IMG/VR virus record: IMGVR_UViG_3300030085_001554
Location: 1-60,508 of that record
Reading direction: 5' to 3' (one strand)
Length of the DNA: 60,508 nucleotides
From: a virus
In this document: one piece after another, positions 8,742 to 52,765 of the stretch
Position numbering within the stretch: position 1 is the stretch's first letter
How the letters are laid out: each line of letters starts with the position of its first letter
Made by a program: the position numbers and the translations under genes
The notes under the pieces: model-generated
Databases searched by the model: none
Seen by the model: the letters and a program-made list of their open reading frames with translations, nothing else
Told to the model about the DNA's origin: nothing

Positions 8742-11700
8742 TTATTCGAAGAATCTGATTTTGTCTTCTACAGTTTTGGTGTCGGCAGTAGAGAAGCCGT
8801 AGATAATAGGCATCACTTTACCAACCTTACCCCAAAGCTTCCTGTCTCCTTCTTCTCCCCAGTAACTATCTCTCTGGTAGATGACTTCCTTCTCCAGCTT
8901 CTCGCTGACAGGAGCACCAACTGCTTGGCGCACATTGTAAGGAAGCTCTGCCAGAGCAAGGTGAGTTACAAGGTCCCAATACTTCTGTAGTCTGTTTGCC
9001 GCAGCCATGGGGGCAACAAACATTCTCAAGGCCTCACCTGGATTGATGTAACCTAACAGCTCAGTCTGCAATCTTCTAGCTTGGTAAGCTATGTATGCAG
9101 CTGCGTAGCTATCCTCGTCATCATCATCTAGTATGCTAGTGAGTGCACTGAATATGAGCATCACTGTTCCCAGTGCCCCCATCTCAGTGACTGCACGCTT
9201 GATGTTCATCTTGTCTACACTAGCAGTATTGTCCCAGACTTTGGAGAATTTGTACCCGTTCTCATGCCCAAGGCGCAGGAAGCTGCCTAGTGATATGTAC
9301 ATACCTCTGGTCACAGTACCAAGCTCTAAGTCTCTATGGTAGATGTCACCGTGTCCCCAACGTTTTCTCCAGCCTGGGATGAAGTAGTTCTTAAACAGCA
9401 TCAAGAAGGCACCGAACGGAGTTCTAGATAAGGTAGATGCATCGAAGTTACCCTTCACCTGGTTAGTACGCTTGTACAATCCACGCAGCTTAGCCATGAA
9501 GACAGACTCATTGAAGCCGCTCTTCTCCATGTCTACTCTAGGATCAAGCTCTACACCGTTCTTGGTCTCTACCATCAGGTCCCACAGGTTGGCGTCTTTG
9601 CCTTCTTCTGTTTGGATGACCTTACCGTTCTTGTCCACTAACTTTCCTTCGAGTGCTTTCATAGAGGCAAGCATTCTAACTGCTGCTGTCTCGTATTCTA
9701 CTGCACCCTGCAGAGCCAACAGATTACCTGTCTGGATTGCCTTCAAGAACTTATTGTTAGATGCATCTCTACCGAGAGAGTCTGTAGCTTCGACCAAAGC
9801 ATCGTAGTGCAACATTGCCTTACCTAGCTTGGAGGTAGCAGCAAACTTGCCGATGTCCCCAACTCCAGCACCTTCTTTGATAAACATGCCCTTGGCCCAC
9901 CGGAGGTCCTTGTTGTCAAAGAACTCTCCGGCAATAGCCTCTTCTCTTACCATCAAGTTGTCCAGAACAAACTGGTTACCTATCTGCAAGAAGTTGAAGC
10001 TCAAGCTACCAAGTGCAGCCATGGAGTTGATTGTCCCAACAAACTTGGTGGGGTCCATACCCAGGATCTTGTCTTCAATCTTCTTCTTGTGTATACCGTA
10101 GAAAGCACTGTCGATGAACTGCATCAAGTGATTAACAGTGTTGGATGCGTCACCTGGTGTGGTAGCCGTAGTGTCCACCGAGTACTTTTCGAACAAGTTC
10201 TTAAATCGCACAGCCTCTCTGTCCAAGAGCGTAGCACCTTGGTCATCCTTCTGTATAACACGTCTCTGCTTGTGCAGATCAGCCATTGCATTGACAAGAC
10301 CAACAAGCTTTGCCTTTTCAGCATACTGGTGTGACCTGTGAGAGAACATCAAGATGGAGGAGAGGATGTCCCTTGTCACTTCCTTCTCATCTACCGGGTT
10401 AGTGTAGTATCTAGGCAGGTATCTTTCAGACTTTCCTTCAAAGTCAACTGCCGCACCGTACATTTCTTGGTCAGTCTCTGTACGGACAAACGCATCCTTC
10501 GCCTCTACAATCACACCCTTCAGCCCAAGACGACCAATAGCCTCGACGTTAGACTGACGTACACTCGGGAGGATATACGAGAAGTTGTCCCACGGGTTCA
10601 TGTGCTGTGGGTTGTTCTGTCCGTATATCTGTTGCTTCTCTTTGTATGTCTCGAGCAAGAAGTTGTACATCTTCTTGAGCTCAGGTGTTCTCTGGATCTT
10701 CTTGTACTTCTCGCTTTGCCACTTCTCTTCGTTAGGCTTAGCCAGCTCTCCCATGTACGTCTGTGTAGACCGATCATATGAAGAGCGAATACGAATGTTC
10801 AAGTCGTTGATGTACTCCTGCAGGATAGCAGCCTCACCTGGTTTCTCAAAGTCTTCTGCAACTTTGCGCTGAGCAATCAATTCTTTCCGTTCGTTGGTAA
10901 GAGCTAATAGTTTAGCTGCTGCATTATCTACTTCAACAGTGTTCTCAGCAAACCAGGCAGCCTTTCTGCGGAAGTAGTTACGCCCCTTCTTGCTAAGTAT
11001 CCACTTCTGATACTCCTTTTTGCTCTTTTCGCTTTCAGGGTCGTAGTCAGGCCGCTCAGTATCTTTTGCCAGATTCTGCAAGAACGTCTGCATCTCGAGG
11101 TAGAACCCAGCAGTATTCGTAGGCTGCACCAGCGCAAGTTGTCTAAGAGATTCACCTTTGACGCCTCTAGACTTTACCTCTACGACTTCGATAAGATCCC
11201 CAAAGAATTTAGCCTTGTTGGTGTCGTCTCCCATGTAGTCTTTGAACTCTCTGTAGTACTCTGCTGCCTCGTTGATTACAGCTAACGACTTTCTGTTCGC
11301 CCCAAAGTTGCCTTCGTTGAGAGCCAGTGCAAACATCTGCAAGTTGGCTTCGCTAGAGTATACCATCGGGTCAAGCCACAAAGCAAAGGCACTCTTATCT
11401 GTGTGCGCGTCGGTGAGCTCCTTAATGATGTTGTCTCTGTTCAGCTTCTTTGCTTGAAGCTTCTCGATCTTTAACTCAATTACAGCTCTCTTCCACTCCT
11501 GCTTGGGGTCTAGGCCGTCAAACTCTGCAGTTTCTTCAATCTGTTTCTTTCTCTTTTTCAGTGCCTGGTAGTCAGGATCACGACTCATTCCACTCGTGTC
11601 CATGTTGGCACGAGTCGCTGCTATTACCTCATCGATCTTTGCGTTTATGTTCGGATCTATGTACGCAGCGTAAGCATCTGCAACAAGCGGAGCTATAGTC

Positions 11701-14700
11701 TCAATGTATTCCTCTTCTAAGTCTTGCAGTTCTGCAATAGACTTATTGAGGTCGTGCAATATCTGCTCACTGAACAGGTAGTCTGCGTTGCCGTCTTCCA
11801 GGTCTTGTCCAATGACATCTTGTACAGCTCTCTGCAGCTTGTCCACAAGAGAACGGCTACGGTCGGTTGGGCTAAAGAAGGTGTCAATAGTGTGCTTGAC
11901 TTGTCCGATTCTTTGAAGCATACCTAGTGCATCTTCTTTTGAAACAGGCTTGTCTTTTGCTTTCTGCAAGTCGTTGAACACAGCACGTGCGAGAGCCACC
12001 TGATCGTGCACGTAAGAGGCGAACGTCAAGAAGCCCTTGATGCTGTTCTTATTCTCACTAATCTCCTTCAGGGTGTTCTGTAACTGCTTGACCTTCAGGA
12101 CCTCTGCCTTAGTCTGCAGAGTAGAAGGCTTCCGCTTGATCATTCGGATCTGCTTCTCCAGGCTCTGGTACCCCTCTTCAAAGATGTCATCTAACCTTTC
12201 ATCAAGCTGCTTACTCTTTTGTACCCTAGGATTCCTCTTACCGGTGAGCACCATGGCTCTGATATCACCTGCGAACATCTTCTCTGCAAGGACCGCAGCT
12301 GCATCAGGAGTAATCCCAAACAGCTTTCCGATGGCACGCATGATGCGGTTAATCAAGATGCGGAGTTTGCTTGGGTTCTTGCGTTCGATTCGAGCTCCCT
12401 CTAATCCGACGGCAGTAACCAAGATCTCCTTGAGCATCCCAAACTCATCCAGCTTCTCGTTCTCGTACTCACGACGAATCATTGCAGCAAGGTCAGGTCT
12501 AGTCTTTTCAACCTGTGCAGCAAACTGACGTACGTCCTCTTCGGGGAGCATGTCAATTAGAATGTGACCAGCCTCGTGGTACACTGTATCCTCCGACATC
12601 TGAGCGGGGTCCAACGTGATAACCCCATTCTCGACCATACCCTTTGTCCCTGCAGGTAAGCTGGTCAGGACAACAGGGAGCTCTACTCCCGCAGCTGCAA
12701 AAGAACTAGTCAGTCTAGCAATCTTAGCTTCTGCTCCTATAGGAGTTTCAGCTACAGTAAGGTTGAGGAGAGACTTTTTCTTCGAAGGCAAAGCAAGACT
12801 GTCATCTGTAAGCTCTCCTAACTGCTCTTGTAAATCTTTTATTTGTGCCTCAACCTTTTGTTTTTGCTCGAACTTATTTCTCCCAAAGAACATGTCAAAA
12901 GCAATCTTATTTTGAAGACTAAATATCTTTTCTTCTAACTGCTTTATCGTTGGATTCCCTTCAGTTAAACCAGTGAGAGGATTTATTTTAGTAGTCTCTT
13001 CTTGGGAAAGGTCTGTCTTTGCTCCTGACGTTAGGTCACTAAGAGCACTCTTTCCCTTTTCCATTTCGCTGAGCTCACCAGAGAAATTATCAGCAGTTAA
13101 TTCTTCTGAGCCCAGTGCTTCTGCAACTTCTTCATTCTCTGTCTTTACCTGCTCAGCATCAACGTCATCTTTCTCAGGTGCATTGTTATCCTCAGACTTG
13201 AGCTTCTTCAATCCTCTGGTCTCAAACACCAGGCTCCCATCCATTGGCTCTCCTTCTTCGGTTCTAAGATTGTGTTCGTAGAATCGACCCTTTACAGAGC
13301 GTCGCTGCACTACTTCGAAGAGCACGTCTCCAACAGTACTATCACCTATAAACTTAGGAGTGGCCTTTACAATACCTACACCTCTGACATACATGTACTT
13401 AGGAGGTACACTTTTTGCGTCTTTGTCCCATCTAACAGTCTCCTCGTTAGCTATTCGCATAGGGATATTCACAAGACCTAAGTATCCTTTCCTGTACTCA
13501 GACAGAATAGTTTCTCCTGAGTAAGAGTAGGCTCCATAGTGCACCAAGAAGTCATCTTGAAACTCTACACCGAGCTCAGTTCTACCCATGCGCAGCTGTT
13601 CAATTTCTTGATTGTAGTGTTCGGTGACACCGATGTCTTCAAGGATGGACGGGGGCAGGACATTCATCATACTGCGAGGACCAGGACCAAAGCCAGTAGT
13701 CACGATAGCAGTAGTAAGAAGATCTCTAGCAAACTTGTTGGCATACGCTGCCTCTTCTTCGTTAAAGATTCCAGACAGATTGAAGTACAGCTCTTCCCAA
13801 CCTGCAATGATTGCGTTTTGCTGGCCCACGTCTCTAGACTGTCGGTTGTTGTACTCTACGTACACCATCCGCTTTCTGTCTTTCTTCTTCTTGGTGTTGT
13901 TGAACTCGTACTGCGCAGGCTCTAGCGAATCTATGAGTGCGTTGAACACCCCCTTGTCATCGAGAATGCTCTTGATGTTATCTAGCTGGGAGAGTATGCT
14001 ACCCTCTTCTTCTCCTTCTAACAACAGATCCTGTACAAGTGTCTTGTCCAAGAAGCCTTGCTCGTACAGAGGACTACCGGGCTTGGTGACAAGGTGATGG
14101 TTTACACCCATCAGTAGTGCCTTCTGCACACCCTCCCCAAATGGGGAGCCTTTACCCATGTTCATCACTGCCTTCCTGAACATCTGGTATCCAGGTTGAT
14201 TGGCTAGGAACCCAGCATCAGAAGCAAGTTCAAGTGCTTTTTGTATAGCTTCCCAATATGCTCTAGACGATCTGTATGCGTCTCCTTCTAAGATCTCAAG
14301 CAGTAGAGCTTTGCCTCCGTACACAGAACCACCTGCAGCCTTGGTCAAGTAGTAGTCTATCTTATCAAACTGCGCAAGATTCTGCGCGGTTGTACCAGAC
14401 TTGTCTATGGTAAATGGAGTAATTGCACTATACAGATTGTACAGGTCATTAGCCTCTCTGTTTATAAGCTGCAGTATTTGCAGCATACGGGCGTACTCTT
14501 TCTTGGTTGGGGTTTTATCCTCTACTAGGTATGCAGTAGTCTGCCTTCTCATCTCTTCGAAGTCAAGGACAACGTCTCCCAACGGCTTGGCGAACTTCAG
14601 TATTTTGTATTCAGTCCCACTAAGCAGAGACTTGGATATGCTCTGTCCGTTTTTCTTAGCCTTTTCCGTGACTGCTCGTACAACGGGGTGGTTGAGGTAC

Positions 14701-17700
14701 GTGCTTACCTGTCTAGGAGTCAGGCCTCTAGAGTAGAGGTACGTAGAAATTTTAGCTGTAAGCTCGCTGTCGTTGATAGCACGCTGCAATGGGTCTTTTA
14801 CAGAGTCCACTGCAGAACCCAAATGCAAAGACATGAAGTAGTCTGTAGGCCTCTTTGCTCCGGTAGCATCTTCGAAGAGTGCGTTCTGTTGCAGAGTAGA
14901 TGTAGTTACCGTGAAGGCGTCATCTTCAATGAAAGTCATCAGCTCTCCCTCGAGGAGCTCTTCTTCTACCTGAGACCCAAACAGAACGTTCCGACCAAGA
15001 ACTGCATCTGCCCAGATACCACGCAGTCTGTGCGAGAGCATGTTGTCTACCGTAGATTGTATTGCATCTACAGTGCTGAAGATGTCCAGCTCTTTGCTTT
15101 GGAACATAGCAGGAGCGTTGTCTCTTGCCACCTTCAGGTCGGGACCGTCCAGCGGAGTAACCACCTCATGCATGTGGTTAAGGTTAGATGCAACTGCTTC
15201 GAAGGTGTCAAAGAAGACATTGTTCAGCTGTGCATTGCTGAGCTCAGACATACCTTCTAAGTTATCTTTCAGCTCTCCGTAAGGAACTTGCACCTTCTCT
15301 CCGTTCTCTATCTCAGGGAAGAGGATAAACATCTTATCGATGTCAAAGTCAGAACCCATCATGGCGGTAATGCCAGGCGGTACACGGATAACTCCGTCGT
15401 GTGATCTTGGGAGCAGGTTTCGCACCTCCATAATCAACAGAGAAGACTTACCCTGTTGTGGAATACGGTAACCCATGATGCGTTTAAGACCTTCGTTGAT
15501 CTTGGACATGTCCCCAGTCTTTCTTGCCTCATCAATAACCTTGGGGTCAATGCCTGCGCGGACAAGGTATCCTGCCCCAACATCAACCTGTGCATGAGCA
15601 AGACGATTGTCCTTCACCTCCAAGAACTTGAGGTTCTCTTGCAGGCTAGCATCTGCCTCTATAGTTCCGAGGTCAGAGAATCTACCGCCGAGGTCTGCAA
15701 ACTGAACCATTTGCTGCCCCTTGACCCTCTGCTTGTAGACATCATTCTTGTAGATGCTGAAGATCAGCTGGTCAAACTTACTCTGCAGAGTTGGGTAACC
15801 GAATGGGAGTGACTCTAATGCTTCGAGCACACCTTCGTTAAATCCCTTCTCTCTTGCCAGAGACTCAAGCTTAGCTTTTACTTTGGGCAAGAACTCTTCA
15901 ATCGCCTTCTGCCGCTGAGCTTCATCCTTAGCTTCGAGAACTCTATCATACCCCAGCTCTTTGTGCACACCAGCCAGCGCTCTGTTAATCTTCTCGCTTA
16001 CAGCACTGTGGAAAATGTCTTGCAGCTGATTGCCTTTTACAGTCTCAGCAAAGTCCAGTCCTGCATTGTAGGTGTAGTCTAACTCCGCGAAGATGTTGGT
16101 AAGCATGTTCACCTTTGCCTGGTGACCAAGACCCAGCTCATCTTTAGATCCCTTAATCGGGACTTCTTCTGGGAAGCGCAGGAACTGTGAGTCCATCTCT
16201 GCTACGTTAAGGCCTGCAAACTGACCAGGGGTAGCTTCTGCTCCTGTCTTTACTTCGTAAGCAGGAACGACGGCAAGCTTCTGTGCAGATATTGCATGGA
16301 CAACTTCAATAGGTTCCATGCCTTCATAGAACTCTCCTCTTGCTTCCATACGGTTAAGAAGGTCCTGTAGCACAGGTATGCCTTCGACCAGCTCGTCTGT
16401 AAGAACTATGTACGAGGTCTTGTCAGAGTAGTTAACAATCAGGTCACTCCCTGCTTCATTCCTTTTTACTGGACCATCGTATGACGGCTTCATAGCAGAG
16501 ATTGGGACGCTGGGGTCCCAGATACCTTCCCCTATCTCAGCGGCCACGTATGCTCTATACACTTCTTCAAAGCTGGCATCAACCTCACCCTTACCCTGCA
16601 TAATCTCGTAGAAGTGCTTTGGAGATATAAACGCCTGTGCGTCAGTAGACTCCATACCCAAGTAGCCCGCTACAATTCTTTCAGCTGCAGCCTCACTGCC
16701 CAAGATCTTAGCGATGTTGGACTTATAGGCATCCAGCGTTTCAGGATCTAAGCTAACCAGAACGTCTCTGATTGTACTTGCGTTGAACCTTGGTGACAGT
16801 CCATACTCTGGGTTAGACGGGATGTCTCCTTTAAGGATGGGTTTACCACCTGGAGTGGTGATGAGCTGTGCTCTCTTGACGTAGTCCTTTCCGTCTTTGG
16901 TTACGTTCACACCTGCTCGGAACATAGACCGAGACAGAAGACGACCCATGTAGTCATACAACGCATAGTTTCTGACAAACTCTGTCGGCCTACCAAGTGC
17001 CTTGTTGTCTACGTTCTCAGCCAGAAATTTATATCCGGCACTCTTCAGGGGGAAGCTAACCTTACCCTTCTTTGTAACCTTACCTCCGATGCGGCGCGCC
17101 AGACGTACGAAGTTCTCTTCTATCGCAGCATCAACTTCTCCTACAAGTCCTTCAAACGCTGCTGTAAGCTCTTCATCTGTCTCAATCTCAGCGACCTTGT
17201 CTTTGGTGTAGTAGTAGTGAATGCCCTCAATAAGATCCTCCTCTTCCTGGTTCATGATGATACCGTCGGAGTCTACCTCTACAACTTTAGGAAGCACATT
17301 AAACTTATTCCAAGAGCCTGCAGAGAAGTCAGGAACTAACTCTCCTGTGTCCTCATCCTCTACCATATTATAGTGGTAGCCTTCTACAAGAATGCCCAAG
17401 CCTTCTCCTTCTACTGCAGCACTTATTTGCTCCCTGGCTTCTTGCATACGAATCAAGTCGAGAACAAGACCGTCACGCAGAGCAGGCTCAAACGTAGACA
17501 TCCCAAAGGCTCTGGATTGCTCCCTGCGCTCTAGCTTTGGGATAGGGATTAAGACCGGGCGCTTTCTGTCACCCGGCGTATCCATTGCTACAAAGGCCTC
17601 TTTCCTGCCGGTGTTGTAGAATGCATTCATTCTAGCTGCAAGAAGAGTCTCGAAGTTCATGGTCTCGACGACGTTATTCGTCATCTCATCTTCTTCCTGT

Positions 17701-20084
17701 TCACCAAAAGCTTCTAGAGTCTTGAACTTAAAGTTCTTGGTGTAGCCATCGTTCTGCAGTAACCTGTACAGCAGGTCACTAGCTCCGTACATGTTGTGCT
17801 GTAGCGTGTTGGTTATGAACTCGCGCAGCTCACCATTGGCTATACGTATCTCCTCGTCGTTGAGCCTAGACTTCTTATTGATAGGGTAGATAGAACGTCT
17901 AAGAGAGTCAACGAATGTGTTTGACTTTGCAGTAGTAAATGGAGCGACGAACTTCTTGATGATCTCTTTGATGGTTGTACCCTCGTCATCGAAGAAGTTT
18001 GTTCCAAGCTCGTTGTTGTTCACTAGTGCAGATACAATCTCTATGAATCTAGTGTTGTTGATGAACGTCTTCAGCCTGAACTTGTCCTTGCCTTTGGTCT
18101 TGAACACAGCTTGGACACGATCGATACTTTCTTGTTCGGTCACACCAATCTCTATGCCCATCTCCCAAAACAGTCTACCTAAAGCAGCTTGTTGTTTTGT
18201 GTTAAGGTTAGGGCTAAGCAGTATACCTTCTTCTACACTTATTCCAACTTCTTCTGCGAGCTTTTCAATCTTTGCCTGTCGTGCGGGATTCACACGAAAG
18301 CCTCCGCCAGGAAGCTTCCGGAATATTTTCCTCGGTAGAGTAGAATTTTCTTTCCATGTAAGCTCGTATGACCTGAGCACAGACCCATCATTGGGGGAGT
18401 AGATTTTACTACTTACGACTTTGTCTTTCCCAGACTTAGTAGTCTCTACCTCAACGCGTAAGAACTCTTGAGATGCAGTGTTAAATGCGTAGAATAGTGA
18501 GGCTTGTTGGTCTGCCTCTAAGGAGTTAATGAAGTTGTAAACTGACAACATAGAAGGGATACTTTCTCCCTTCTTCTGCAGCTTGGTCAACATCTCAGTA
18601 AAATTGCTAGAGTCTGTAACGATGTTGAGTACAGTTCTGTACACTTCCATTGCAGGTATGTACGTGCGTATGCCTGTGCGGGTAGCGGCGTCGCTATCTA
18701 CAGGAATACGGGACAGAAGTATACGCTGCTTCTGAGTCAGTGTCTTACCCGGGTCCTCCTCAAGCCTAGATATAGAGTAGATACGCTCTTGGCCTTCCTC
18801 GTCTTTGAACTCGACTTCACGTTCAGTAAGTCTCAGTCCAAACTCCTGTAACAAGACAGCAGTGTCACTCCGGAATCCAGTGATCTTACGACCGTTTTCA
18901 TCCTCGAAGTCATACCAGTTATCGTATACAGCTTTGAAGTAGTCTTCTAAACCTATCTTGTCTGGGTTGTCTTCGTACTCATCTTCGAACAGCTTAGAAA
19001 TTAAGTTTCCGTTCTGGTCAAAGATTGGGGGAGAGTCGTAGATATCCTGCTCTAGTTTGTAGTCAATCAGTTCCTGGAGCTTTGACTCGTCTTCATTGGC
19101 TGCGTCGTGCAGTCTTCTCACCTTAGCAAACTCTTGGTAGCTGAGCATGTTACCGTTAGCATCGCTCATAGACAGGCGTAAGAAATAATCTCTTACCTCT
19201 GACCGCCCCTTTACTTTGGGGTCTCCCAAGAGATTCCTAGTCTTACGGCTCATCGCCTTACGTAAACCCTTACGATCTGACGGGTCCACTCTTTTCATCA
19301 GAGCGTCGTAAGAATCTACTATCATAGCAGCACCCACACGGGTGAGCTCCTCGTGCATCTGGATGTCCGTAGCAAACCTTTTAATCATGTTTGCCGTAGT
19401 GCTGCCCTTAAACTGGGTGGCTCCGCGTACGAACTTGGCTGGGATCTTGTTCGACTCTATGAGTCTGTATGCCTGTCTTGTAGTAAGCGGCTTCCCCACC
19501 AACGCTCTAACGTACGCAAGCAAGTCCTTGAAGAACTTAGCTATTCTCTGCCCCATGCCTTTGGGTGCAGACTCTGACATAGAGTAGAAGCGGAACTCTT
19601 CCGCCATCTTTTCTTCTAAGGCCAGCAGTCTGGCATCAGCATCAGATATCTTCTCCTTGAGGTCTTTCCTAGCCCTAGCGATATCCTCAGCTGTGGGCTC
19701 ACCGTATCGCTCTACCGCATCCTTGTACAGTTGTTCTCTCTGAACATCGTTGAGTGTGGTACGGAAGAAGATGTGAAACGCTTCGTGGTACTTAGCATCA
19801 AGAGGAGCAAATTGACTTAAGTGCGCAGCGCCCTCTTGCACATACCCAAATCGTAACCCACTGTCAAGACTCTCTAGTGCATTCTTAATGAAGACACTAT
19901 TGTCTCCAAAACGCTTTTGGAAGTAAGAGTTTACACGATCCGTCTGGTCGATGACAAAGGTAGTTGGGATATTACCTTGGTACTTATCCCACAGGTAATA
20001 CGCAATGTCCTCGTCGAACTTATTGATCAGACCGTCAAACTGTTTCTTGACTTCTGGGTTAGAGAGATTCGGGCAAAATGGCAT
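8742..20084 (-). CDS. Giant virion protein: RNA polymerase with two zincin domains
   Basis: A 3,780-residue protein, probably packed in the capsid and ejected with the DNA. Residues 95-170 hold a zinc-peptidase motif, YHEAFH (H100, E101, H104), with a Glu-rich helix LEEKMAEEF downstream. Residues about 1,100-1,700 are the RNA polymerase: GSDFDIDKMF carries the metal-binding Asp triad (D1579, D1581, D1583), the form known from the crAss-like phage phi14:2 virion polymerase, with LGLGHQAK (K1324) upstream as a possible part of the first barrel. An acidic linker lies near 2,298-2,367, then a second zincin YHEAGH (H2503, E2504, H2507) and 1,250 mostly helical residues ending in a hydrophobic segment (VMLIFSALTSIL) and a basic-aromatic tail. 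The start overlaps the previous stop as TAATG. Confidence 0.88.
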   Translation of the reverse strand: MPFCPNLSNPEVKKQFDGLINKFDEDIAYYLWDKYQGNIPTTFVIDQTDRVNSYFQKRFGDNSVFIKNALESLDSGLRFGYVQEGAAHLSQFAPLDAKYHEAFHIFFRTTLNDVQREQLYKDAVERYGEPTAEDIARARKDLKEKISDADARLLALEEKMAEEFRFYSMSESAPKGMGQRIAKFFKDLLAYVRALVGKPLTTRQAYRLIESNKIPAKFVRGATQFKGSTTANMIKRFATDIQMHEELTRVGAAMIVDSYDALMKRVDPSDRKGLRKAMSRKTRNLLGDPKVKGRSEVRDYFLRLSMSDANGNMLSYQEFAKVRRLHDAANEDESKLQELIDYKLEQDIYDSPPIFDQNGNLISKLFEDEYEDNPDKIGLEDYFKAVYDNWYDFEDENGRKITGFRSDTAVLLQEFGLRLTEREVEFKDEEGQERIYSISRLEEDPGKTLTQKQRILLSRIPVDSDAATRTGIRTYIPAMEVYRTVLNIVTDSSNFTEMLTKLQKKGESIPSMLSVYNFINSLEADQQASLFYAFNTASQEFLRVEVETTKSGKDKVVSSKIYSPNDGSVLRSYELTWKENSTLPRKIFRKLPGGGFRVNPARQAKIEKLAEEVGISVEEGILLSPNLNTKQQAALGRLFWEMGIEIGVTEQESIDRVQAVFKTKGKDKFRLKTFINNTRFIEIVSALVNNNELGTNFFDDEGTTIKEIIKKFVAPFTTAKSNTFVDSLRRSIYPINKKSRLNDEEIRIANGELREFITNTLQHNMYGASDLLYRLLQNDGYTKNFKFKTLEAFGEQEEDEMTNNVVETMNFETLLAARMNAFYNTGRKEAFVAMDTPGDRKRPVLIPIPKLERREQSRAFGMSTFEPALRDGLVLDLIRMQEAREQISAAVEGEGLGILVEGYHYNMVEDEDTGELVPDFSAGSWNKFNVLPKVVEVDSDGIIMNQEEEDLIEGIHYYYTKDKVAEIETDEELTAAFEGLVGEVDAAIEENFVRLARRIGGKVTKKGKVSFPLKSAGYKFLAENVDNKALGRPTEFVRNYALYDYMGRLLSRSMFRAGVNVTKDGKDYVKRAQLITTPGGKPILKGDIPSNPEYGLSPRFNASTIRDVLVSLDPETLDAYKSNIAKILGSEAAAERIVAGYLGMESTDAQAFISPKHFYEIMQGKGEVDASFEEVYRAYVAAEIGEGIWDPSVPISAMKPSYDGPVKRNEAGSDLIVNYSDKTSYIVLTDELVEGIPVLQDLLNRMEARGEFYEGMEPIEVVHAISAQKLAVVPAYEVKTGAEATPGQFAGLNVAEMDSQFLRFPEEVPIKGSKDELGLGHQAKVNMLTNIFAELDYTYNAGLDFAETVKGNQLQDIFHSAVSEKINRALAGVHKELGYDRVLEAKDEAQRQKAIEEFLPKVKAKLESLAREKGFNEGVLEALESLPFGYPTLQSKFDQLIFSIYKNDVYKQRVKGQQMVQFADLGGRFSDLGTIEADASLQENLKFLEVKDNRLAHAQVDVGAGYLVRAGIDPKVIDEARKTGDMSKINEGLKRIMGYRIPQQGKSSLLIMEVRNLLPRSHDGVIRVPPGITAMMGSDFDIDKMFILFPEIENGEKVQVPYGELKDNLEGMSELSNAQLNNVFFDTFEAVASNLNHMHEVVTPLDGPDLKVARDNAPAMFQSKELDIFSTVDAIQSTVDNMLSHRLRGIWADAVLGRNVLFGSQVEEELLEGELMTFIEDDAFTVTTSTLQQNALFEDATGAKRPTDYFMSLHLGSAVDSVKDPLQRAINDSELTAKISTYLYSRGLTPRQVSTYLNHPVVRAVTEKAKKNGQSISKSLLSGTEYKILKFAKPLGDVVLDFEEMRRQTTAYLVEDKTPTKKEYARMLQILQLINREANDLYNLYSAITPFTIDKSGTTAQNLAQFDKIDYYLTKAAGGSVYGGKALLLEILEGDAYRSSRAYWEAIQKALELASDAGFLANQPGYQMFRKAVMNMGKGSPFGEGVQKALLMGVNHHLVTKPGSPLYEQGFLDKTLVQDLLLEGEEEGSILSQLDNIKSILDDKGVFNALIDSLEPAQYEFNNTKKKKDRKRMVYVEYNNRQSRDVGQQNAIIAGWEELYFNLSGIFNEEEAAYANKFARDLLTTAIVTTGFGPGPRSMMNVLPPSILEDIGVTEHYNQEIEQLRMGRTELGVEFQDDFLVHYGAYSYSGETILSEYRKGYLGLVNIPMRIANEETVRWDKDAKSVPPKYMYVRGVGIVKATPKFIGDSTVGDVLFEVVQRRSVKGRFYEHNLRTEEGEPMDGSLVFETRGLKKLKSEDNNAPEKDDVDAEQVKTENEEVAEALGSEELTADNFSGELSEMEKGKSALSDLTSGAKTDLSQEETTKINPLTGLTEGNPTIKQLEEKIFSLQNKIAFDMFFGRNKFEQKQKVEAQIKDLQEQLGELTDDSLALPSKKKSLLNLTVAETPIGAEAKIARLTSSFAAAGVELPVVLTSLPAGTKGMVENGVITLDPAQMSEDTVYHEAGHILIDMLPEEDVRQFAAQVEKTRPDLAAMIRREYENEKLDEFGMLKEILVTAVGLEGARIERKNPSKLRILINRIMRAIGKLFGITPDAAAVLAEKMFAGDIRAMVLTGKRNPRVQKSKQLDERLDDIFEEGYQSLEKQIRMIKRKPSTLQTKAEVLKVKQLQNTLKEISENKNSIKGFLTFASYVHDQVALARAVFNDLQKAKDKPVSKEDALGMLQRIGQVKHTIDTFFSPTDRSRSLVDKLQRAVQDVIGQDLEDGNADYLFSEQILHDLNKSIAELQDLEEEYIETIAPLVADAYAAYIDPNINAKIDEVIAATRANMDTSGMSRDPDYQALKKRKKQIEETAEFDGLDPKQEWKRAVIELKIEKLQAKKLNRDNIIKELTDAHTDKSAFALWLDPMVYSSEANLQMFALALNEGNFGANRKSLAVINEAAEYYREFKDYMGDDTNKAKFFGDLIEVVEVKSRGVKGESLRQLALVQPTNTAGFYLEMQTFLQNLAKDTERPDYDPESEKSKKEYQKWILSKKGRNYFRRKAAWFAENTVEVDNAAAKLLALTNERKELIAQRKVAEDFEKPGEAAILQEYINDLNIRIRSSYDRSTQTYMGELAKPNEEKWQSEKYKKIQRTPELKKMYNFLLETYKEKQQIYGQNNPQHMNPWDNFSYILPSVRQSNVEAIGRLGLKGVIVEAKDAFVRTETDQEMYGAAVDFEGKSERYLPRYYTNPVDEKEVTRDILSSILMFSHRSHQYAEKAKLVGLVNAMADLHKQRRVIQKDDQGATLLDREAVRFKNLFEKYSVDTTATTPGDASNTVNHLMQFIDSAFYGIHKKKIEDKILGMDPTKFVGTINSMAALGSLSFNFLQIGNQFVLDNLMVREEAIAGEFFDNKDLRWAKGMFIKEGAGVGDIGKFAATSKLGKAMLHYDALVEATDSLGRDASNNKFLKAIQTGNLLALQGAVEYETAAVRMLASMKALEGKLVDKNGKVIQTEEGKDANLWDLMVETKNGVELDPRVDMEKSGFNESVFMAKLRGLYKRTNQVKGNFDASTLSRTPFGAFLMLFKNYFIPGWRKRWGHGDIYHRDLELGTVTRGMYISLGSFLRLGHENGYKFSKVWDNTASVDKMNIKRAVTEMGALGTVMLIFSALTSILDDDDEDSYAAAYIAYQARRLQTELLGYINPGEALRMFVAPMAAANRLQKYWDLVTHLALAELPYNVRQAVGAPVSEKLEKEVIYQRDSYWGEEGDRKLWGKVGKVMPIIYGFSTADTKTVEDKIRFFE

Positions 20085-23000
20085 TACTTACAGTCTTTTT
20101 TGTTTTGTTCTCCCTTCTTCTTGGCCTGACCTGCCGGTCTTTTTCTTTTTGCTGCTTTGGATGCAGGTGAGAGAAGGCTAGTTATATCAGCCGGGGGCTT
20201 GGGCTGGGCATTTCGTGTATCCATCTTTGGCTTAGGGGCAGCTACCTCTCCGGTGAGTTCGGAGTCAGACTCAAAGATATCTATTTCGATGCCGAGATCA
20301 TAATAAAAGCTCCCGTTATGCGCCTTACCATCTACCGTAAGAATAGATAACTTATCTCCTTGCGGAGTTTCAAGCTCATTGGGGTCACTTAAGTACTCGA
20401 GGTAACTGTCGTAAGACTGTCCAGTAACCTTAGAAGTATACGGTGCATTAGCATATGCTTCTTCAATGCTGACCTGTCTTCTCTTGTCTAGCAAGGCCTT
20501 GCGGAAGCTGGACAAGAAAGCTTCCTTCATCTTGTTCTGGTAGATGGACATCTCCTTACGCATTGCAGTCTGCTCTTCTTTGGACAGACCTTCTTCGTAA
20601 GGATTGAACTTACTCTTGAACGTATAGCGAACGTTACCTTCGGAGTCAGTAACAGGTATTTCTTCTTCTCCGACCGTCTCCTTCTTCTCTACGAACTTTC
20701 CTACAGAGAAAACAAAGGGCTCTCCCTTGAGCGCCTTAGCCATATCTGTGTTGAAGATTCTGACTACATCTCCATTAGCATGTTTGAAGTAGACAGTAGC
20801 GTTTGCGAACGGCTCTTGCTGTATGTAGATAGTAGTATCAGGGTTCTGGTCGTTTGAGAAACCTACAATCTCTCGAATGCTTTCTACAATGGTACTGGTA
20901 TCCTGTTGCAACAATGCTTCTATTGCACCCACAGCCTGTGAGTCCATCTGTGCAGTCGCTGCAGCTTTGATGCCGTACCCAAATCCGGGTCTGGGAGATA
21001 CGATTACAACTCTACCTGCGCGGATTCCTTCTTTAGGATCAGTCTGTATTCCAAAGATCTCGTCTACCTTATCTGCCTCCTCTTCGTTGTTCTGCATTTC
21101 AGCAGACAGTCGGACTCTACCCTTGTTGTTCATAGCAGCAATGGTGACGTCCTCCATCCCTTCGACAGCTTCTGCAATAGAGAAGAATACTCTTTCACCT
21201 GCTTCGTTTACAGTAGTGACGATGTTACCTGCACGCACACCTTTGATGCGCCCCACTACATCTTCCCCATTTACAATATTCTTTCTCTCCTCTGCTATAG
21301 GCTGTGTAGCGCTAGCACTGGGCACCATTCCGATAAGGACAGTGTCTGCTCCAACTTGTAAGTAAATGCCGATAGGAACGTTGTCGGAGGTTGTTTCGTT
21401 CTCAGAAGACCACTTGGTCTCCAGCACCTTGAACGTAACCTTCATATTCTGAAGGTCTTCTATAGGAGTGTCCTTGATGATCTGACGGTTGATAGGCAGT
21501 GGTACACCGTTGACGTCTTGCTGGTTGATGTCGTTACCTGTGCTTGTCTCCCCGTTCTCGTTAACGATAACATTGTACGTTCCCCGTTCAGTACTCAGCT
21601 CTCCGTTTGCTACACTTACTGCACCAGACTTCTTTCTGTTCTCCAGGTGTCTTTGCTGTTGCTCTTCTTTTGTAGCTGGAGAAGTACCTCTTTGCGCATT
21701 TTGGAGCCTTTGATTGTAGAAGGTTTTTAAGTTTATACCCATTGAGGCAGTTGTAGTTAAGCCCAACTGCCTAAGAGCAAACTTGCTAAACTGTTCCCAT
21801 GATGCTCCCCGCTCTAAGAACAATTCCATAGTGTCTATATACTCCTGGGCTGCTTCTTCTTGAGTTTTAGAATACTTTCCTTCATCATTTAGCAACCCCA
21901 CAGGACGTCCAACATCTACAACATCTAAGTCTTTAGTTTTTCCTAGACCAGAAGCTTGTAGATTTCCGGCAAGACTCATATTTACTTCGTCTTCAAGCTC
22001 ATCTATAGTTGTTGCTTCAAATTCGGTTTTCTTCTTCTTCTTCTTTTTTCCTGTAAGCTCCTCAAGCGCAGAAGGTCCCCTTTCACCTTGCTCTTCTGCA
22101 AGTGCAGCAGCTATCTCTGCTTCTGTGGGGGGTGCGTCTTCTGAAGGATCTTCTTTGATAGCATCTTCTTCACCAGGCACATCTTCTGCCGGACCAACCT
22201 CTTCCTCTGCGGCAGGTGCTTCCTCGGCTGGCTTTTCTTCCTTTTTCTTTTTCTTCTTAGGCTTAGTCTTAGGTTCAGCCTTGGGCTCTGCTCTTGTCAG
22301 CAGCGGGTCAAGCTGCCCATTTCTGGTACGCGCCTCAATAATCTTAGAGTAGATGCTTTTGGTCATCGCATCTTCTTCGTCATTGTATTTACGCTTAAGC
22401 TCAGCGACAGAGAGATACGCAGATTCAGTTTGTATGTCTCTAGCTAAATCGGAGACTTCTTTCTTCCGCTTGGCTATTTCATGTTTGACCTCGGCACTGA
22501 GAGGATTCTCTTCTGTGCTTACAATATCACGCAGGTCTTTTTCTGTCCTTGCATTAGCAAGTCTTTCTCTTGCTTGCTCATCGCGTTGCTGCTGTGCAAT
22601 TGCATCTTCACGTATGCGCTGACGCTCAAGAGCAGCACTTCTGCTTTCTGGACTTGCATAAAGATCATTTACAGTCTGAACTAGCTGCTTATTCTTCTCA
22701 TTAATTCGAATCAGATCTATGGCCTTTGTTGCATAGTCTGGTGCAGCATGTGGCTTTCTACGTTTAACACGCTTTAACCCACGTTCTAACTTATCTCTAA
22801 GTGCTTTGGGATCTCCCTCCAGGTCCTCTTCAGTGATGATGCCTTTGTCAGACTTGTACTCTCCAAGCTCGTTGAGCTCGCTCATAAGGCTGGTAGTACG
22901 AGTACCCCCGTCTTCAATCTCGAAGGCGTATTGTAATGCGTTGCTGCGGAGGTCATTGAAGTCTTGGAGCTGTGCGAGATGCTCTGCTATCTCTTCTTTG

Positions 23001-24787
23001 TCTGCTCTAGCACCTGGTGCAACAGGGGGACTGAACCTAGCATCAAAGTTATCCCGCAGCTCTACAAACCTGAGGATGTCATTTTTGATGCCATTGACCA
23101 GTTTGTTCTTGTCTAAGCTGTCTACGCTGTCCGGGATTCCGTAGTGCTCTCTAAACGTCTGCTCATCTTTAGCCAGCTCTTCGTCTAGCTTCTCCATGAA
23201 CAAGTCTAGCCTACCACCATCAGCAGCCAGCAAAGCTTGTTTCATGACAAGGACAGCTTGCAGATCTCTGTAGGTCTTGTGGTCTCCCTGCTCTAAAGCT
23301 TGGGACATGCGTGCAGCTATGTCTATCTGAGAATCAAGGCTCGCTGCTTTCTGCATGTAGTTGAACATCTCAGGGTCATTGAGCATGTCAACTAACTTGG
23401 TTCTTAATTCTTTCTCGCGCTTCTGAGACTCTCTGCCTGGCTTGAGGTAATGTCTACGTACAGCACCACCACCTCCACCGAGAATACCCACGATGGCACC
23501 GACCATAGTAGAGTCTAAGCCTTCTTTGGTTGAGAACGTAGTAGCATACGCTTCTCCCCAGGCGTCTATTGCTTGTGACAAGGCTCCTTCTGTGCCTGAA
23601 CGCATAAACGGGATTGAGGTTTCACGCAAGAACTGCAGGGTATCTTCTGCCGCCCCTTCTTGTATTGCAAACTGCGTGCTCTCTTGGAAAGACTCAACAA
23701 CAGCGCCTCTTCCCATGGGCTTACCAAAGTTGATCAATGCGCGTTTCGTTGGGGAGAGCTGGTCTACGGTCGACTCGTACAGTTTGGTCTTTTGGTTTTT
23801 TGTTATACCACGACCAAACCCACGGCGGGCATCGAAGTATCTAGGATTAAGTAGAGCTCTGTAGGCAACAACATTACCTAGTCCCACTACCATACTGTTA
23901 AGAGCAAACGCAGTATTAGCTACAGCTTTAGCTTCTTCTTTGGCGTCTAACTTAGTCTGTGCATCTAGGTCTTTTACTTCCACACCAGTGGCAGCAGCAG
24001 CCTGTTCCAACAACTCTTGTTCTTTACGACGCAGTGTTTCACGTGCCTCTACAGAGGCTTCTGCAAACGCAGATGTAAATCCTATGAATGCGTTCTTAGT
24101 TGCATCAATAGCTGGTGCAAGACCCGGACCCTTTGTTATTGCTTTAACAGCATCATCCACTCCTGTAACAGCAGCTTTTGTGAACCTGTGCGCCTTGAGT
24201 CCATTGCTTAAAGCCTTACCTGCCAGACGCACCCCTCCTGCAACTGTAGCAGTACTACCTATCATGCCTGCCAGATATCCAACACCATTCAGCGTTTTGT
24301 CTGCCCAGAAATTGGCGTAGCCGAGAGAAGCTAATCCTACTGCTTCTTGTTCTTCTTTTGTGTAGTAGTTAGGAAAGTTATTTTGCATCCACTCGTTCAT
24401 AGAGTCGACGTTGTTACCTATGACGTTGTCATAAAACTTACTTTTATCCCACTGTCCTACAGACTGAATGATACCTGCTACAAGTCCCGCAGTGCCGTCA
24501 ACGAATGCCCCACCTGCAGTGGTGATCATTTTTGCGGTTCCGTTAAACCACTTCTCTCCTGTGGACTGTCTCTTGGCGCGCTCTTCTTCTAAATCAAGAA
24601 ACGGAGACAAAGGAGCTCCGTATTCTTGATAGCTAGCAATTGGGTCCCTGTACTGAGGGTTAAACTGTGATTGCAATTGAACACCTGCTCCAGGAGATAC
24701 CCTTTTAACTGAAGGAAGTCCAGTGATAGGACTTACCTCAGGTACTTCAGGAAGGCCTGTAAACTCGTTGAGCGTTTGATTCTCCAT
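20084..24787 (-). CDS. Large virion cargo protein
   Basis: A 1,567-residue protein with the layout of crAss-like internal (ejected) proteins. Residues about 1-60 are Pro-rich and carry two TGLP motifs. Residues about 85-260 have Gly/Ala-rich hydrophobic segments (TTAGGAFVDGTAGLVAGII, GYLAGMIGSTATVAGG) that could insert into a membrane during DNA delivery. A long charged helical middle follows, with a Lys-run and Pro/Glu/Ala-rich low-complexity stretch near 870-980, and then a globular beta-rich C-terminal part. No enzyme motif is recognised. TAATG overlaps link it to the genes on both sides, implying coupled synthesis with the polymerase giant. Confidence 0.75.
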   Translation of the reverse strand: MENQTLNEFTGLPEVPEVSPITGLPSVKRVSPGAGVQLQSQFNPQYRDPIASYQEYGAPLSPFLDLEEERAKRQSTGEKWFNGTAKMITTAGGAFVDGTAGLVAGIIQSVGQWDKSKFYDNVIGNNVDSMNEWMQNNFPNYYTKEEQEAVGLASLGYANFWADKTLNGVGYLAGMIGSTATVAGGVRLAGKALSNGLKAHRFTKAAVTGVDDAVKAITKGPGLAPAIDATKNAFIGFTSAFAEASVEARETLRRKEQELLEQAAAATGVEVKDLDAQTKLDAKEEAKAVANTAFALNSMVVGLGNVVAYRALLNPRYFDARRGFGRGITKNQKTKLYESTVDQLSPTKRALINFGKPMGRGAVVESFQESTQFAIQEGAAEDTLQFLRETSIPFMRSGTEGALSQAIDAWGEAYATTFSTKEGLDSTMVGAIVGILGGGGGAVRRHYLKPGRESQKREKELRTKLVDMLNDPEMFNYMQKAASLDSQIDIAARMSQALEQGDHKTYRDLQAVLVMKQALLAADGGRLDLFMEKLDEELAKDEQTFREHYGIPDSVDSLDKNKLVNGIKNDILRFVELRDNFDARFSPPVAPGARADKEEIAEHLAQLQDFNDLRSNALQYAFEIEDGGTRTTSLMSELNELGEYKSDKGIITEEDLEGDPKALRDKLERGLKRVKRRKPHAAPDYATKAIDLIRINEKNKQLVQTVNDLYASPESRSAALERQRIREDAIAQQQRDEQARERLANARTEKDLRDIVSTEENPLSAEVKHEIAKRKKEVSDLARDIQTESAYLSVAELKRKYNDEEDAMTKSIYSKIIEARTRNGQLDPLLTRAEPKAEPKTKPKKKKKKEEKPAEEAPAAEEEVGPAEDVPGEEDAIKEDPSEDAPPTEAEIAAALAEEQGERGPSALEELTGKKKKKKKTEFEATTIDELEDEVNMSLAGNLQASGLGKTKDLDVVDVGRPVGLLNDEGKYSKTQEEAAQEYIDTMELFLERGASWEQFSKFALRQLGLTTTASMGINLKTFYNQRLQNAQRGTSPATKEEQQQRHLENRKKSGAVSVANGELSTERGTYNVIVNENGETSTGNDINQQDVNGVPLPINRQIIKDTPIEDLQNMKVTFKVLETKWSSENETTSDNVPIGIYLQVGADTVLIGMVPSASATQPIAEERKNIVNGEDVVGRIKGVRAGNIVTTVNEAGERVFFSIAEAVEGMEDVTIAAMNNKGRVRLSAEMQNNEEEADKVDEIFGIQTDPKEGIRAGRVVIVSPRPGFGYGIKAAATAQMDSQAVGAIEALLQQDTSTIVESIREIVGFSNDQNPDTTIYIQQEPFANATVYFKHANGDVVRIFNTDMAKALKGEPFVFSVGKFVEKKETVGEEEIPVTDSEGNVRYTFKSKFNPYEEGLSKEEQTAMRKEMSIYQNKMKEAFLSSFRKALLDKRRQVSIEEAYANAPYTSKVTGQSYDSYLEYLSDPNELETPQGDKLSILTVDGKAHNGSFYYDLGIEIDIFESDSELTGEVAAPKPKMDTRNAQPKPPADITSLLSPASKAAKRKRPAGQAKKKGEQNKKDCK

Positions 24788-27246
24788 TATCTACCGGGTA
24801 CTATAGTGGTAAATCCTTGCTCCACCAAAGTTTTGTTTATAAATCCGTTTCTGTCTAGGGCACTTGTAAGACTCATGGTTCTATTAGCTCCCGGGCCTGT
24901 AAGCACTGTAACCTTGTCGTCTTCAATATTTACCTCAAACGATATGCGTCCCCCTTCAGGGAGTGCGGGGTTTGCGTTAGGAGGAAGTATCGCCGTTAAG
25001 ATAGGAGCGGCGACACCGTGCTGTCTTTGCACCAAAGCTTGTCTGTAGAAGGAAGCTCCCATACTAGCATACCAGTTGTTTATTCCCGGTGCTCCAGTGA
25101 TTTGAGACATAGGGATATGGGCTACTACAGGTATTCTGTCTTTACCTACTTCATAGGTCAGTTCCAGTGTTGGACCAGCAGGGCCGGGGCTTGCAGGATT
25201 AAATCTTACTTCTCCTACAGATACAATTCTTTCTGATCCTCTTTCACCGACGGTCAAACCTTGTTCTTCCATTATCTCATCAAATCCAACAAGGCGCCCT
25301 GTTCTCTGGCTGACAAATGCTTCTCCTCTTGCATGCGGATTAGTCTTAGCAAACAAGTCATTGAGTTGATCCATCTCTCCCTTAGTCATTCCCAAAAGAT
25401 TAGTGCTGACTGTGGGAGTATACTGTCTGGTTGACATGCCTTCTATGTACTCATTTAACTGTTCGTCAGACTTTTCTAGTGCATCCTGGATACTGTTTGA
25501 GATTCCAGTTTTTGGTGAGAACAACATTTCGATAATATCTGCAGAGCGTCCTAAGCCCCCACCTCCAGTAACTCCGAAGGTTTCGTTAAAGAATTGTCCA
25601 AACCCTTCAGGGTGTGATGAATCCTGGAGGAGGTCATAGTTGTATCCTCCCCACCAAGCTGCAAGCCTACCGTACTCTCTAGGATCAACTCCTGGATCGG
25701 CAAACATACTTGCTTCGTACTCATTTAGATACGAGTGCAGATATGCAAGTGCCGTTGCATTGTCTACGTTGTACTGTTGTTTTATCCCTCGTATTATTTC
25801 TGGGATTCTGTCATGTGATTCCATGGCAGATTGTACTCTTGCTTCGGGCGTCTCACCAGTTGCGTTTCCTGCTTCCTCCAACAACACATTAAGTGCGTGC
25901 TCTTCGGCTAATAGCTCTTGTTGCGCTGCTTTTGCTCTGTTAAACAAAGCTACTTCATCTGGCTCAGCGCCACCTTTGGCATTGATAAAGTCTTGGGCGG
26001 TCATTGTACGAAGCTGATCAAACGTAAGACCGGGGAGTATTTCGTCATAATACCCAGCTTCAGACATTTGAGCTTTTCTCCGCTCTACTTCCTTCATGCT
26101 AGATCGCTTGGTATATAAGCTGACTCCGCTTGGAGAGATGTACTCAGCAACTTCTCCTGGCGCAGATATAGCTACATTTTGTCCAACGCCCCCGCTAGCC
26201 TCGATAGTCTTAAGGTACTTCTGGTCCCATGTGACTATTCTAGAGTCTTTGGTTGGGGAGAAGTAAGCGAATCTAGACTCAGCCGCGTCTCTGTACCCAT
26301 TTTCAATACGCTGCATTTCAAGTGCTTGTATCATCTGACGAGAGCGGTCCACATCTGCTGTGGCCAACTGACCAGCGGTTTGTCTGACTTGAGATGCGTA
26401 AGCTGCAGCTACTTCTCTTTGTTCTTCGCTTAGGTTAGAGTCTTCTGCCATCTCATCATATCGAGCAGCTTCGCTTTCGAACTGGTTCATGTACTGAAGC
26501 TTTGTGGCTTCTACCTGCTCTGGATCGGCCATCCCGTAACGAATCTCTGCCTTTCTAGCCATGTACTCCCGCACCTGCCCGTCAGACATTACCATGTTCA
26601 TTACCTCCTGTACTCTCTCAGCAGAAACAGTTTTGTAGCCTTTCTCTGTTTTTACAGTGTAGACTCCGTCAGGTCCTACTACTCCAACGTCTTGGCGCGT
26701 GACGTTATGCTCTTCGGCTACAATGCCTTTAAGTGCTTCGTTGATGCGCTTTTCTATTTCTGGGTCCTGCACCATAGTAACTCCAACAAAGGGGTTGCTA
26801 TAGTTTCCTTGAGCATCTCTTTGTAGGCCAGTGTACCCATACTGCGAAAGAGCAAGCGTGCCTTCGTAATCTTCGTAGTCTATTTTGCCTTCTTCGTATG
26901 CTTCTTTCAGCCCCGTCTGATATGCACTGTACAGCTCGTAGTTCTGCTTGATTGGGGCAGACTCCATGTTGTACTTTCGAGCTGCATTCATGACAGGAAC
27001 AGTCATGTTCTCGTAGTCACCTCTCTTTGAGATACCTGTAAGAGTTTGATTGGTGCTGTTTACGAGCTCATCGCGATACTGCATATCTGTAGCAAACGGA
27101 GCAGCTTGGAGATTCATCATCTCCTGCTCTACTAACGATGCATTCTCGTAGTTAGTCAAGAATCTTTGACGCAGCTGCTCAGCAATCTCCGTAGACATAG
27201 GATCTACGAACTGCGTTAGGGGCTTATATAGAGAACGGTATGCCAT
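24787..27246 (-). CDS. Virion cargo (internal) protein
   Basis: An 819-residue, largely helical, acidic protein with no signal peptide or clear membrane segment. The N-terminus (VDPMSTEIAEQLRQRFLTNYENASLVEQEM) looks like an extended coiled-coil region and the C-terminus is more beta-rich (RISFEVNIEDDKVTVLTG). The sequence is not recognised beyond its similarity in composition and position to internal proteins of crAss-like phages. It lies between two other cargo genes with TAATG overlaps at both ends. A structural or ejection role is inferred from this context. Confidence 0.7.
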   Translation of the reverse strand: MAYRSLYKPLTQFVDPMSTEIAEQLRQRFLTNYENASLVEQEMMNLQAAPFATDMQYRDELVNSTNQTLTGISKRGDYENMTVPVMNAARKYNMESAPIKQNYELYSAYQTGLKEAYEEGKIDYEDYEGTLALSQYGYTGLQRDAQGNYSNPFVGVTMVQDPEIEKRINEALKGIVAEEHNVTRQDVGVVGPDGVYTVKTEKGYKTVSAERVQEVMNMVMSDGQVREYMARKAEIRYGMADPEQVEATKLQYMNQFESEAARYDEMAEDSNLSEEQREVAAAYASQVRQTAGQLATADVDRSRQMIQALEMQRIENGYRDAAESRFAYFSPTKDSRIVTWDQKYLKTIEASGGVGQNVAISAPGEVAEYISPSGVSLYTKRSSMKEVERRKAQMSEAGYYDEILPGLTFDQLRTMTAQDFINAKGGAEPDEVALFNRAKAAQQELLAEEHALNVLLEEAGNATGETPEARVQSAMESHDRIPEIIRGIKQQYNVDNATALAYLHSYLNEYEASMFADPGVDPREYGRLAAWWGGYNYDLLQDSSHPEGFGQFFNETFGVTGGGGLGRSADIIEMLFSPKTGISNSIQDALEKSDEQLNEYIEGMSTRQYTPTVSTNLLGMTKGEMDQLNDLFAKTNPHARGEAFVSQRTGRLVGFDEIMEEQGLTVGERGSERIVSVGEVRFNPASPGPAGPTLELTYEVGKDRIPVVAHIPMSQITGAPGINNWYASMGASFYRQALVQRQHGVAAPILTAILPPNANPALPEGGRISFEVNIEDDKVTVLTGPGANRTMSLTSALDRNGFINKTLVEQGFTTIVPGR

Positions 27247-52746: not shown

Positions 52747-52765
52747 TATGCAAACCAAACACAAA

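Follow-up and report, generated by a model that had tools for sequence, protein, structure and literature searches.

Locus and gene content

The window, by which we mean the whole 60,508-nucleotide stretch of viral DNA analysed here (IMG/VR record IMGVR_UViG_3300030085_001554), carries on its minus strand a giant ORF of 3780 aa (8742 to 20084) and, directly upstream, an ORF of 1567 aa (20084 to 24787); the two share one base (TAATG). Residues 1130 to 1593 of the giant protein match 6VR4, the catalytic virion RNA polymerase of Cellulophaga phage phi14:2 (phmmer E 3.7e-17), and its catalytic DxDxD is the DFDID at residues 1579 to 1583 (15336 to 15350), of which D-F-D-x-D is invariant among 32 relatives. 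The polymerase region, called B here and homologous to phi14:2 gp66, spans approximately residues 230 to 2290 (13215 to 19397). The C-terminal third matches phi14:2 g065, an "RNA polymerase associated protein" (E 1e-23), and contains C (8742 to 12125), a virion protein homologous to phi14:2 gp65 and crAss001 gp49. Both neighbours of the gp66 family are thus present, with the gp67-like subunit A, a homologue of phi14:2 gp67 and crAss001 gp47, in the upstream ORF, and the gp65-like C fused C-terminally. By homology, the giant protein joins the virion RNA polymerase of Crassvirales, subunit B, to its gp65-like partner C, which bears out the original prediction of a fusion between two cargo proteins. 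Scans of the whole giant protein against Pfam and PHROGs gave nothing useful, and a DNA search against phage records returned no match.

The giant ORF is laid out as Z1-B-Z2-C, where Z1 and Z2 are putative zincin domains. Its first 40 residues (19965 to 20084) form a module that matches the starts of C genes that stand alone in L025, L026, L030 and L039 (E 2e-9 to 3e-8) and in L073 (E 3e-4). Within this module, the sequence FCPNLSNPEVKK contains Cys4 (20073 to 20075), the sole cysteine of the giant protein. Z1 follows at residues 38 to 250 (19335 to 19973). An acidic low-complexity linker at residues 2298 to 2367 (12984 to 13193), which had been predicted to separate the two halves, is cysteine-free and sits at the B-C seam; it contains 30% D+E and 9% K+R, a composition matched in acidity by other stretches of the same protein. 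Z2 occupies residues 2441 to 2653 (12126 to 12764) and leads into C. Subunit A likewise contains one cysteine, its penultimate residue Cys1566 (20090 to 20092; ...KKGEQNKKDCK). Elsewhere in the window, at 52748 to 54193, two long ORFs, one of 479 aa on the plus strand and one of 475 aa on the minus strand, overlap almost fully.

Two ancient paralogous zincin-like domains

Exactly two HExxH motifs occur in the giant protein, YHEAFH with its histidine at 100 (HEAFH, residues 100 to 104; 19773 to 19787) and YHEAGH with its histidine at 2503 (HEAGH, residues 2503 to 2507; 12564 to 12578), as originally reported, against approximately 0.04 expected from composition. Because direct comparison of the two halves by BLASTP was not significant (best E 0.44), we gathered relatives from 65 contigs and eight reference crAss-like phages, extracted the domains at the Z1 and the Z2 position and built a separate aligned profile from each set. 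Compared with hhalign, the two profiles matched over 144 columns (probability 97.4%, E 1.1e-11) in the very register that had been proposed, YVRALVG..RQAYRLIE against IMRAIGKLFG..AVLAEK, so that the claimed likeness of the two segments stands at the level of profiles and fails at that of pairwise comparison. It is highly improbable that the segments are unrelated and merely converged on helical sequence around a common motif; the insignificant pairwise BLASTP and the weak matches to solved structures and Pfam would fit such convergence, but the profile match outlasts masking of HExxH in both profiles (E 8.6e-7) and exceeds all 16 control profiles (column shuffles, the reversed profile and ten neighbouring windows; probability ≤1.2%). 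Furthermore, an iterated profile built from Z1 alone retrieves the Z2 of the window (E 1.3e-4), and AlphaFold2 models of Z1 (pLDDT 79) and Z2 (pLDDT 88) predict a common order of elements, H-E-E-E-H-H-H-H-H-H. Z1 and Z2 are, on this comparison of sequence profiles, homologous domains.

Downstream of each motif lies a conserved glutamate that is probably the third zinc ligand: Glu158 of Z1 (19611 to 19613), nearly invariant in 23 Z1 domains, and Glu2553 of Z2 (12426 to 12428), invariant in 25 Z2 domains. The nearest solved structures to both models are mostly metallopeptidases of gluzincin layout, which rank first for both, though at modest scores (Z about 6, Foldseek E above 0.05). Gluzincin-type enzymes (PPEP-3, the M78-like IrrE/PprI and thermolysin-like peptidases) share with the models the HExxH helix, the strands preceding it and the glutamate on a later helix. 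Neither domain gave a significant sequence match to Pfam peptidase families. Assignment of the zincins to family M78 was considered and set aside: three family members in all match PF06114, below the gathering score and at best with E 0.012 and 0.07, and neither Z1 nor Z2 of the window matches it. We suggest that Z1 and Z2 probably act as zinc peptidases and travel into the host together with the polymerase.

In the tree of both domains, Z1 and Z2 are reciprocally monophyletic (clade support 100/98) with one change of label. The duplicated zincin of the original prediction is therefore real as homology, but it is not particular to this giant protein and not recent; the phylogeny indicates an ancient paralogous pair, each member inherited in its own place. 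The zincins appear accessory, as loss is frequent and either one may be missing or decayed; the motif has decayed to LPEEFAH in Z2 of crAss001 gp49 and to YWEAMR in Z1 of L008. Z2 domains of the LPEExxH type, in which the first histidine is lost and the later glutamate kept, were seen in crAss001 gp49 (L068:9437-13492), L010, L022, L023, L041 and L044, and in those records they are unannotated as zincins. Other arrangements were also encountered. In L013:462-8411 (and in L140) a Z2-like domain (IHEFSH) adjoins Z1 (YHEGFH) at the head of the polymerase gene, the pair being preceded by an MSAFCPN start, and in L131:16399-20625 a single C gene holds two Z2-type domains, HExxH being absent from the first and present as HEFGH in the second.

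One domain order with variable gene breaks

Domain maps covering 74 loci and 80 further loci, in which subunit A was found by profile at part of the loci and by position at the others, showed that relatives keep a single order, A-Z1-B-Z2-C, while the gene breaks vary in place. The break lies before Z1 in the window and the L034 group, after Z1 in crAss001, cr128_1, Dulem virus 41, L031 and L040, before Z2 in L007, L029, L034 to L038 and many others, and after Z2 in L016, L121 and L125; L003, L004 and L006 have no break at all and encode A-Z1-B-Z2-C in one polypeptide of approximately 5,330 aa. In L001 and L002 the fused protein contains Z2 only. Relatives with the two halves in separate genes, a check that the original prediction had proposed, are readily found: the halves are two genes in L007 and L009, the nearest split relatives of the window's fused clade, and in most of 105 clusters. 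Matches to these two place the B-C seam of the giant protein between approximately residue 2278, where the N-gene match of L009 ends, and residue 2454, where the match to the separate C of L007 starts.

Z2 heads C wherever C is a separate gene. Z1, in contrast, is usually a tail of A or an A-B linker and belongs to A as much as to B; it closes A as a C-terminal domain in crAss001 gp47, cr128_1, Dulem virus 41, L031 and L040, a position that speaks against Z1 as the ancestral head of the polymerase. The description of the giant protein as two zincin-headed units was therefore half right, fitting the C half only.

We attach virtually no probability to the notion that the join of B and C is an assembly or frameshift artefact. 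The window is a single metagenomic contig, which would fit such an error, but seven relatives drawn from several metagenome sets show the same fusion, with 29-39% identity in the best segment, so an assembly error does not explain it. L001 to L006, from different sets, carry it at 32-39% identity (best segment), and it recurs elsewhere on the tree in p-crAssphage, L008, L043 and L118. Fusion of B and C amounts to four changes on a polymerase tree of 62 rows and five on one of 103 rows. A separate observation concerns the motif [ND]P[LFI]TGLP, which lies at the N-terminus of A (residues 9 to 26) and at N-termini in L002, L004, L009 and L010, and which in the window recurs at the B-C seam, at residue 2369 of the giant protein (KINPLTGLTEGNP). 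The idea that this motif (PxTGLP) marks both the B-C seam and the beginning of A was discarded, since only some close relatives have it.

The original prediction further held that the zincin heads might cut the acidic linker and so release two cargo proteins from a self-cleaving fusion. The linker does lie at the seam with Z2 close behind it, and both Z1 and Z2 combine HExxH with a conserved glutamate. Yet L008 and L152, relatives with A, B and C fully fused, contain zero intact HExxH motifs, L001 and L002 lack Z1, the fused p-crAssphage gp44 and cr110_1 have no recognisable Z2, and zincins are also common in phages whose subunits are separate genes. An obligatory cut within the chain is thus unsupported, and we regard the self-cleaving model as distinctly unlikely, though an optional cut may occur.

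Paired cysteines mark the gene breaks

Cysteine is scarce in A, B and C, averaging 0.09%, whereas the remaining ORFs at these loci have about 1%. The chain of the window contains one cysteine in the 3780 residues of the giant protein and one in the 1567 of A, with zero at the fused B-C seam. Their positions follow a rule. At every split B|C junction of our first set, B carries a cysteine within its last 1-9 residues and the next gene carries one within its first 2-7 (at residue 10 in L014, whose start is uncertain). In a held-out second scan of 50 clusters new at 70% identity, all 46 split B|C clusters had the cysteine pair (46/46), and two fused clusters had no cysteine at the seam. The A|B junction behaves alike: A ends with a C-terminal cysteine wherever A and B are separate neighbours, and an N-terminal cysteine is found in 60 split clusters and in none of 12 fused ones; a gene that joins A to B starts without cysteine. 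L008 alone departs from this pattern, and it is a fused chain that the length criterion misclassified. There are exactly two terminal cysteines per break in 76 of 79 clusters, the exceptions being L060 and L149, where A is cut off or elsewhere, and L027, where the cysteine of A lies 32 residues from its end. Six unbroken chains contain zero cysteines throughout, and 54 of the 79 chains contain none beyond those predicted.

The pair moves with the break, whether this falls at A|Z1, Z1|B, B|Z2 or Z2|C; it shifts along in L016, L121 and L125, where the break lies past Z2, and L022, which has a second break within C, carries a pair there too. The outer ends of the chain, the start of A and the end of C, are as a rule cysteine-free. 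L118 repeats the layout of the window, with an A that ends ..DWDCII and a fused B-C that starts MGKNSNC and has no other cysteine. The chain appears to start at A, since the two cargo-type ORFs upstream of it (24787 to 27246, 819 aa; 27246 to 29963, 905 aa) contain zero cysteines.

The rule also sorts true breaks from spurious ones. L050 (5796 to 12538), an apparent exception, is likely a frameshifted C gene whose true head, right after B, begins MVVC, and in L065, where TAG seemed to be read through, the pair points to a true stop. Apparent violations in L050, L132 and L134 coincide with likely frameshifts. In seven loci (L025, L026, L030, L039, L049, L074 and L113) long frames are open only with TAG read as an amino acid; among these the rule holds in those with both sides of B|C readable. 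Genes that follow a break often begin with a shared module around the conserved cysteine, C-P-N-x(3)-S/N..G..A..W..N, and modules of this CPN type are found on B and C alike, for example in L007 B, L013, L023 C, L025, L037 C and the giant protein of the window.

Cysteine-free fused seams are in part expected in proteins this poor in cysteine. State changes on the trees number only about 5 for B-C and 6 for A-B, and sign tests of fusion against cysteine on independent pairs, though all in the expected direction (3/3 and 2/2), have no power because independent fusion events are few. A role for the terminal cysteines as a zincin cysteine switch was ruled out, as phages without zincins keep them. 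A search of the open-access literature for zincins, cysteines or disulfides in the cargo of crass phages returned nothing on point; earlier mention elsewhere is possible.

A putative disulfide-stitched cargo

Crass-like phages are described as the most abundant human gut viruses (PMC10172136), and the presence in virions and the transcription activity of the Crassvirales virion RNA polymerase have been established for relatives (PMC10172136; PMC7886860, citing Drobysheva et al.). Their huge cargo has to leave in the right order through constrictions under 50 Å; the crAss001 study argues that it must be partly unfolded to do so and that packing, together with interactions among the cargo proteins, sets the order (PMC10172136). 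We propose that virions would contain, and inject into the host, a cargo that forms one colinear chain, A-Z1-B-Z2-C, with a length of about 5,700 residues. Either of two devices, each able to replace the other, may hold this chain together: the genes are fused, or a cysteine stands on either side of a break. The window would use both, with B and C fused via the acidic linker and A joined through its Cys1566 to Cys4 of the giant protein. The terminal cysteines would form head-to-tail interchain disulfides in the virion, so that a split chain would behave like a fused one; the covalent chain would then impose an order on the passage of A, B and C through the narrow tail, and the reducing host cytoplasm would free the subunits. 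Oxidation would have to follow lysis, because crass phages assemble in a reducing cytoplasm. The portions of the crAss001 atlas available to us list disulfides in tail and portal proteins and none for cargo (PMC10172136).

Homology, domain order, positions of the gene breaks and the cysteine rule are established at the sequence level; we infer from them the disulfide bond, its timing and its role. We hold with good confidence that the cargo combines a B-C fusion with paralogous zincins at its seams and a chain kept by fusion or by a cysteine pair. That Crassvirales cargo more generally is one covalent A-B-C chain, made through fusion or interchain disulfides, threaded in order and released in the cytoplasm, with ancient zincins at the seams, we favour somewhat more cautiously.

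Alternatively, the terminal cysteines could serve as metal clasps, form homotypic dimers (A-A, B-B, C-C) or attach the cargo to another virion protein. In favour of such roles, crAss001 virions reportedly contain many disulfides between tail proteins, and the small CPN-type module that B and C starts often share could be a docking element. However, the cysteines sit at inner chain ends only, in pairs that track the break, both are absent upon fusion, and zincin-less phi14:2 keeps them. We therefore consider these other roles unlikely, though deserving of some weight, and prefer head-to-tail stitching.

If the cysteine rule does mean disulfide stitching, it would represent a new way of building ejected virion cargo and offer a simple answer to the problem of ordered exit, namely a single covalent string with redox-cleavable joints. 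The rule would make separate cargo genes one functional unit. It also tells genuine breaks between genes apart from probable frameshifts (L050, L132) and may flag assembly errors. The tandem zincins, in turn, can be read as an ancient paralogous pair at the seams, which includes an unannotated, motif-less zincin-like domain in crAss001 gp49.

Comparison with known systems

By description, the giant virion RNA polymerases of N4-like phages and the polymerase of P23-45 are likewise very large and ejected or virion-carried, and that of P23-45 is likewise fused to another virion protein, the tape measure. We know of no zincin pair or cysteine seam in either.

Closer to the window, p-crAssphage (Carjivirus communis) gp44 is annotated as an RNAP catalytic subunit fused to an unknown RNAP subunit, a B-C fusion, and gp45 as an RNAP-associated protein fused to a zincin protease; the B-C fusion and the zincin as such are therefore not new. 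Its A|B seam follows the cysteine rule, with gp45 ending ..SFSCM and gp44 beginning MSC. In contrast to the window, its fusion lies elsewhere on the polymerase tree, it has no recognisable Z2 and it contains several extra internal cysteines.

In Bacteroides phage crAss001, gp47 is A with a C-terminal Z1, gp50 is B and gp49 is C with Z2, and all three were found in virions by mass spectrometry (PMC10172136), in a data set that includes a sample left non-reduced (PMC10172136). Unlike the window, it has three genes, with A on the other strand and the Z2 motif of gp49 lost (LPEEFAH). Nevertheless, the inner ends all carry cysteines, at Cys2339 of 2341 in gp47, Cys5 and Cys2404 of 2412 in gp50 and Cys5 in gp49; gp47 ends ..ALRCNS and gp50 starts ..SKRC.., while gp50 ends ..DKICGANTLYEL and gp49 starts ..AKKC...

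Cellulophaga phage phi14:2 has, in gp67-gp66-gp65, the same colinear A-B-C virion proteins and the same catalytic motif as the window. It encodes them as three separate genes with no zincin detected, whereas the window has B and C fused with both Z1 and Z2, and it carries terminal cysteines at both seams: Cys1797 of 1797 in A, Cys3 and Cys2179 of 2180 in B, and Cys3 in C.
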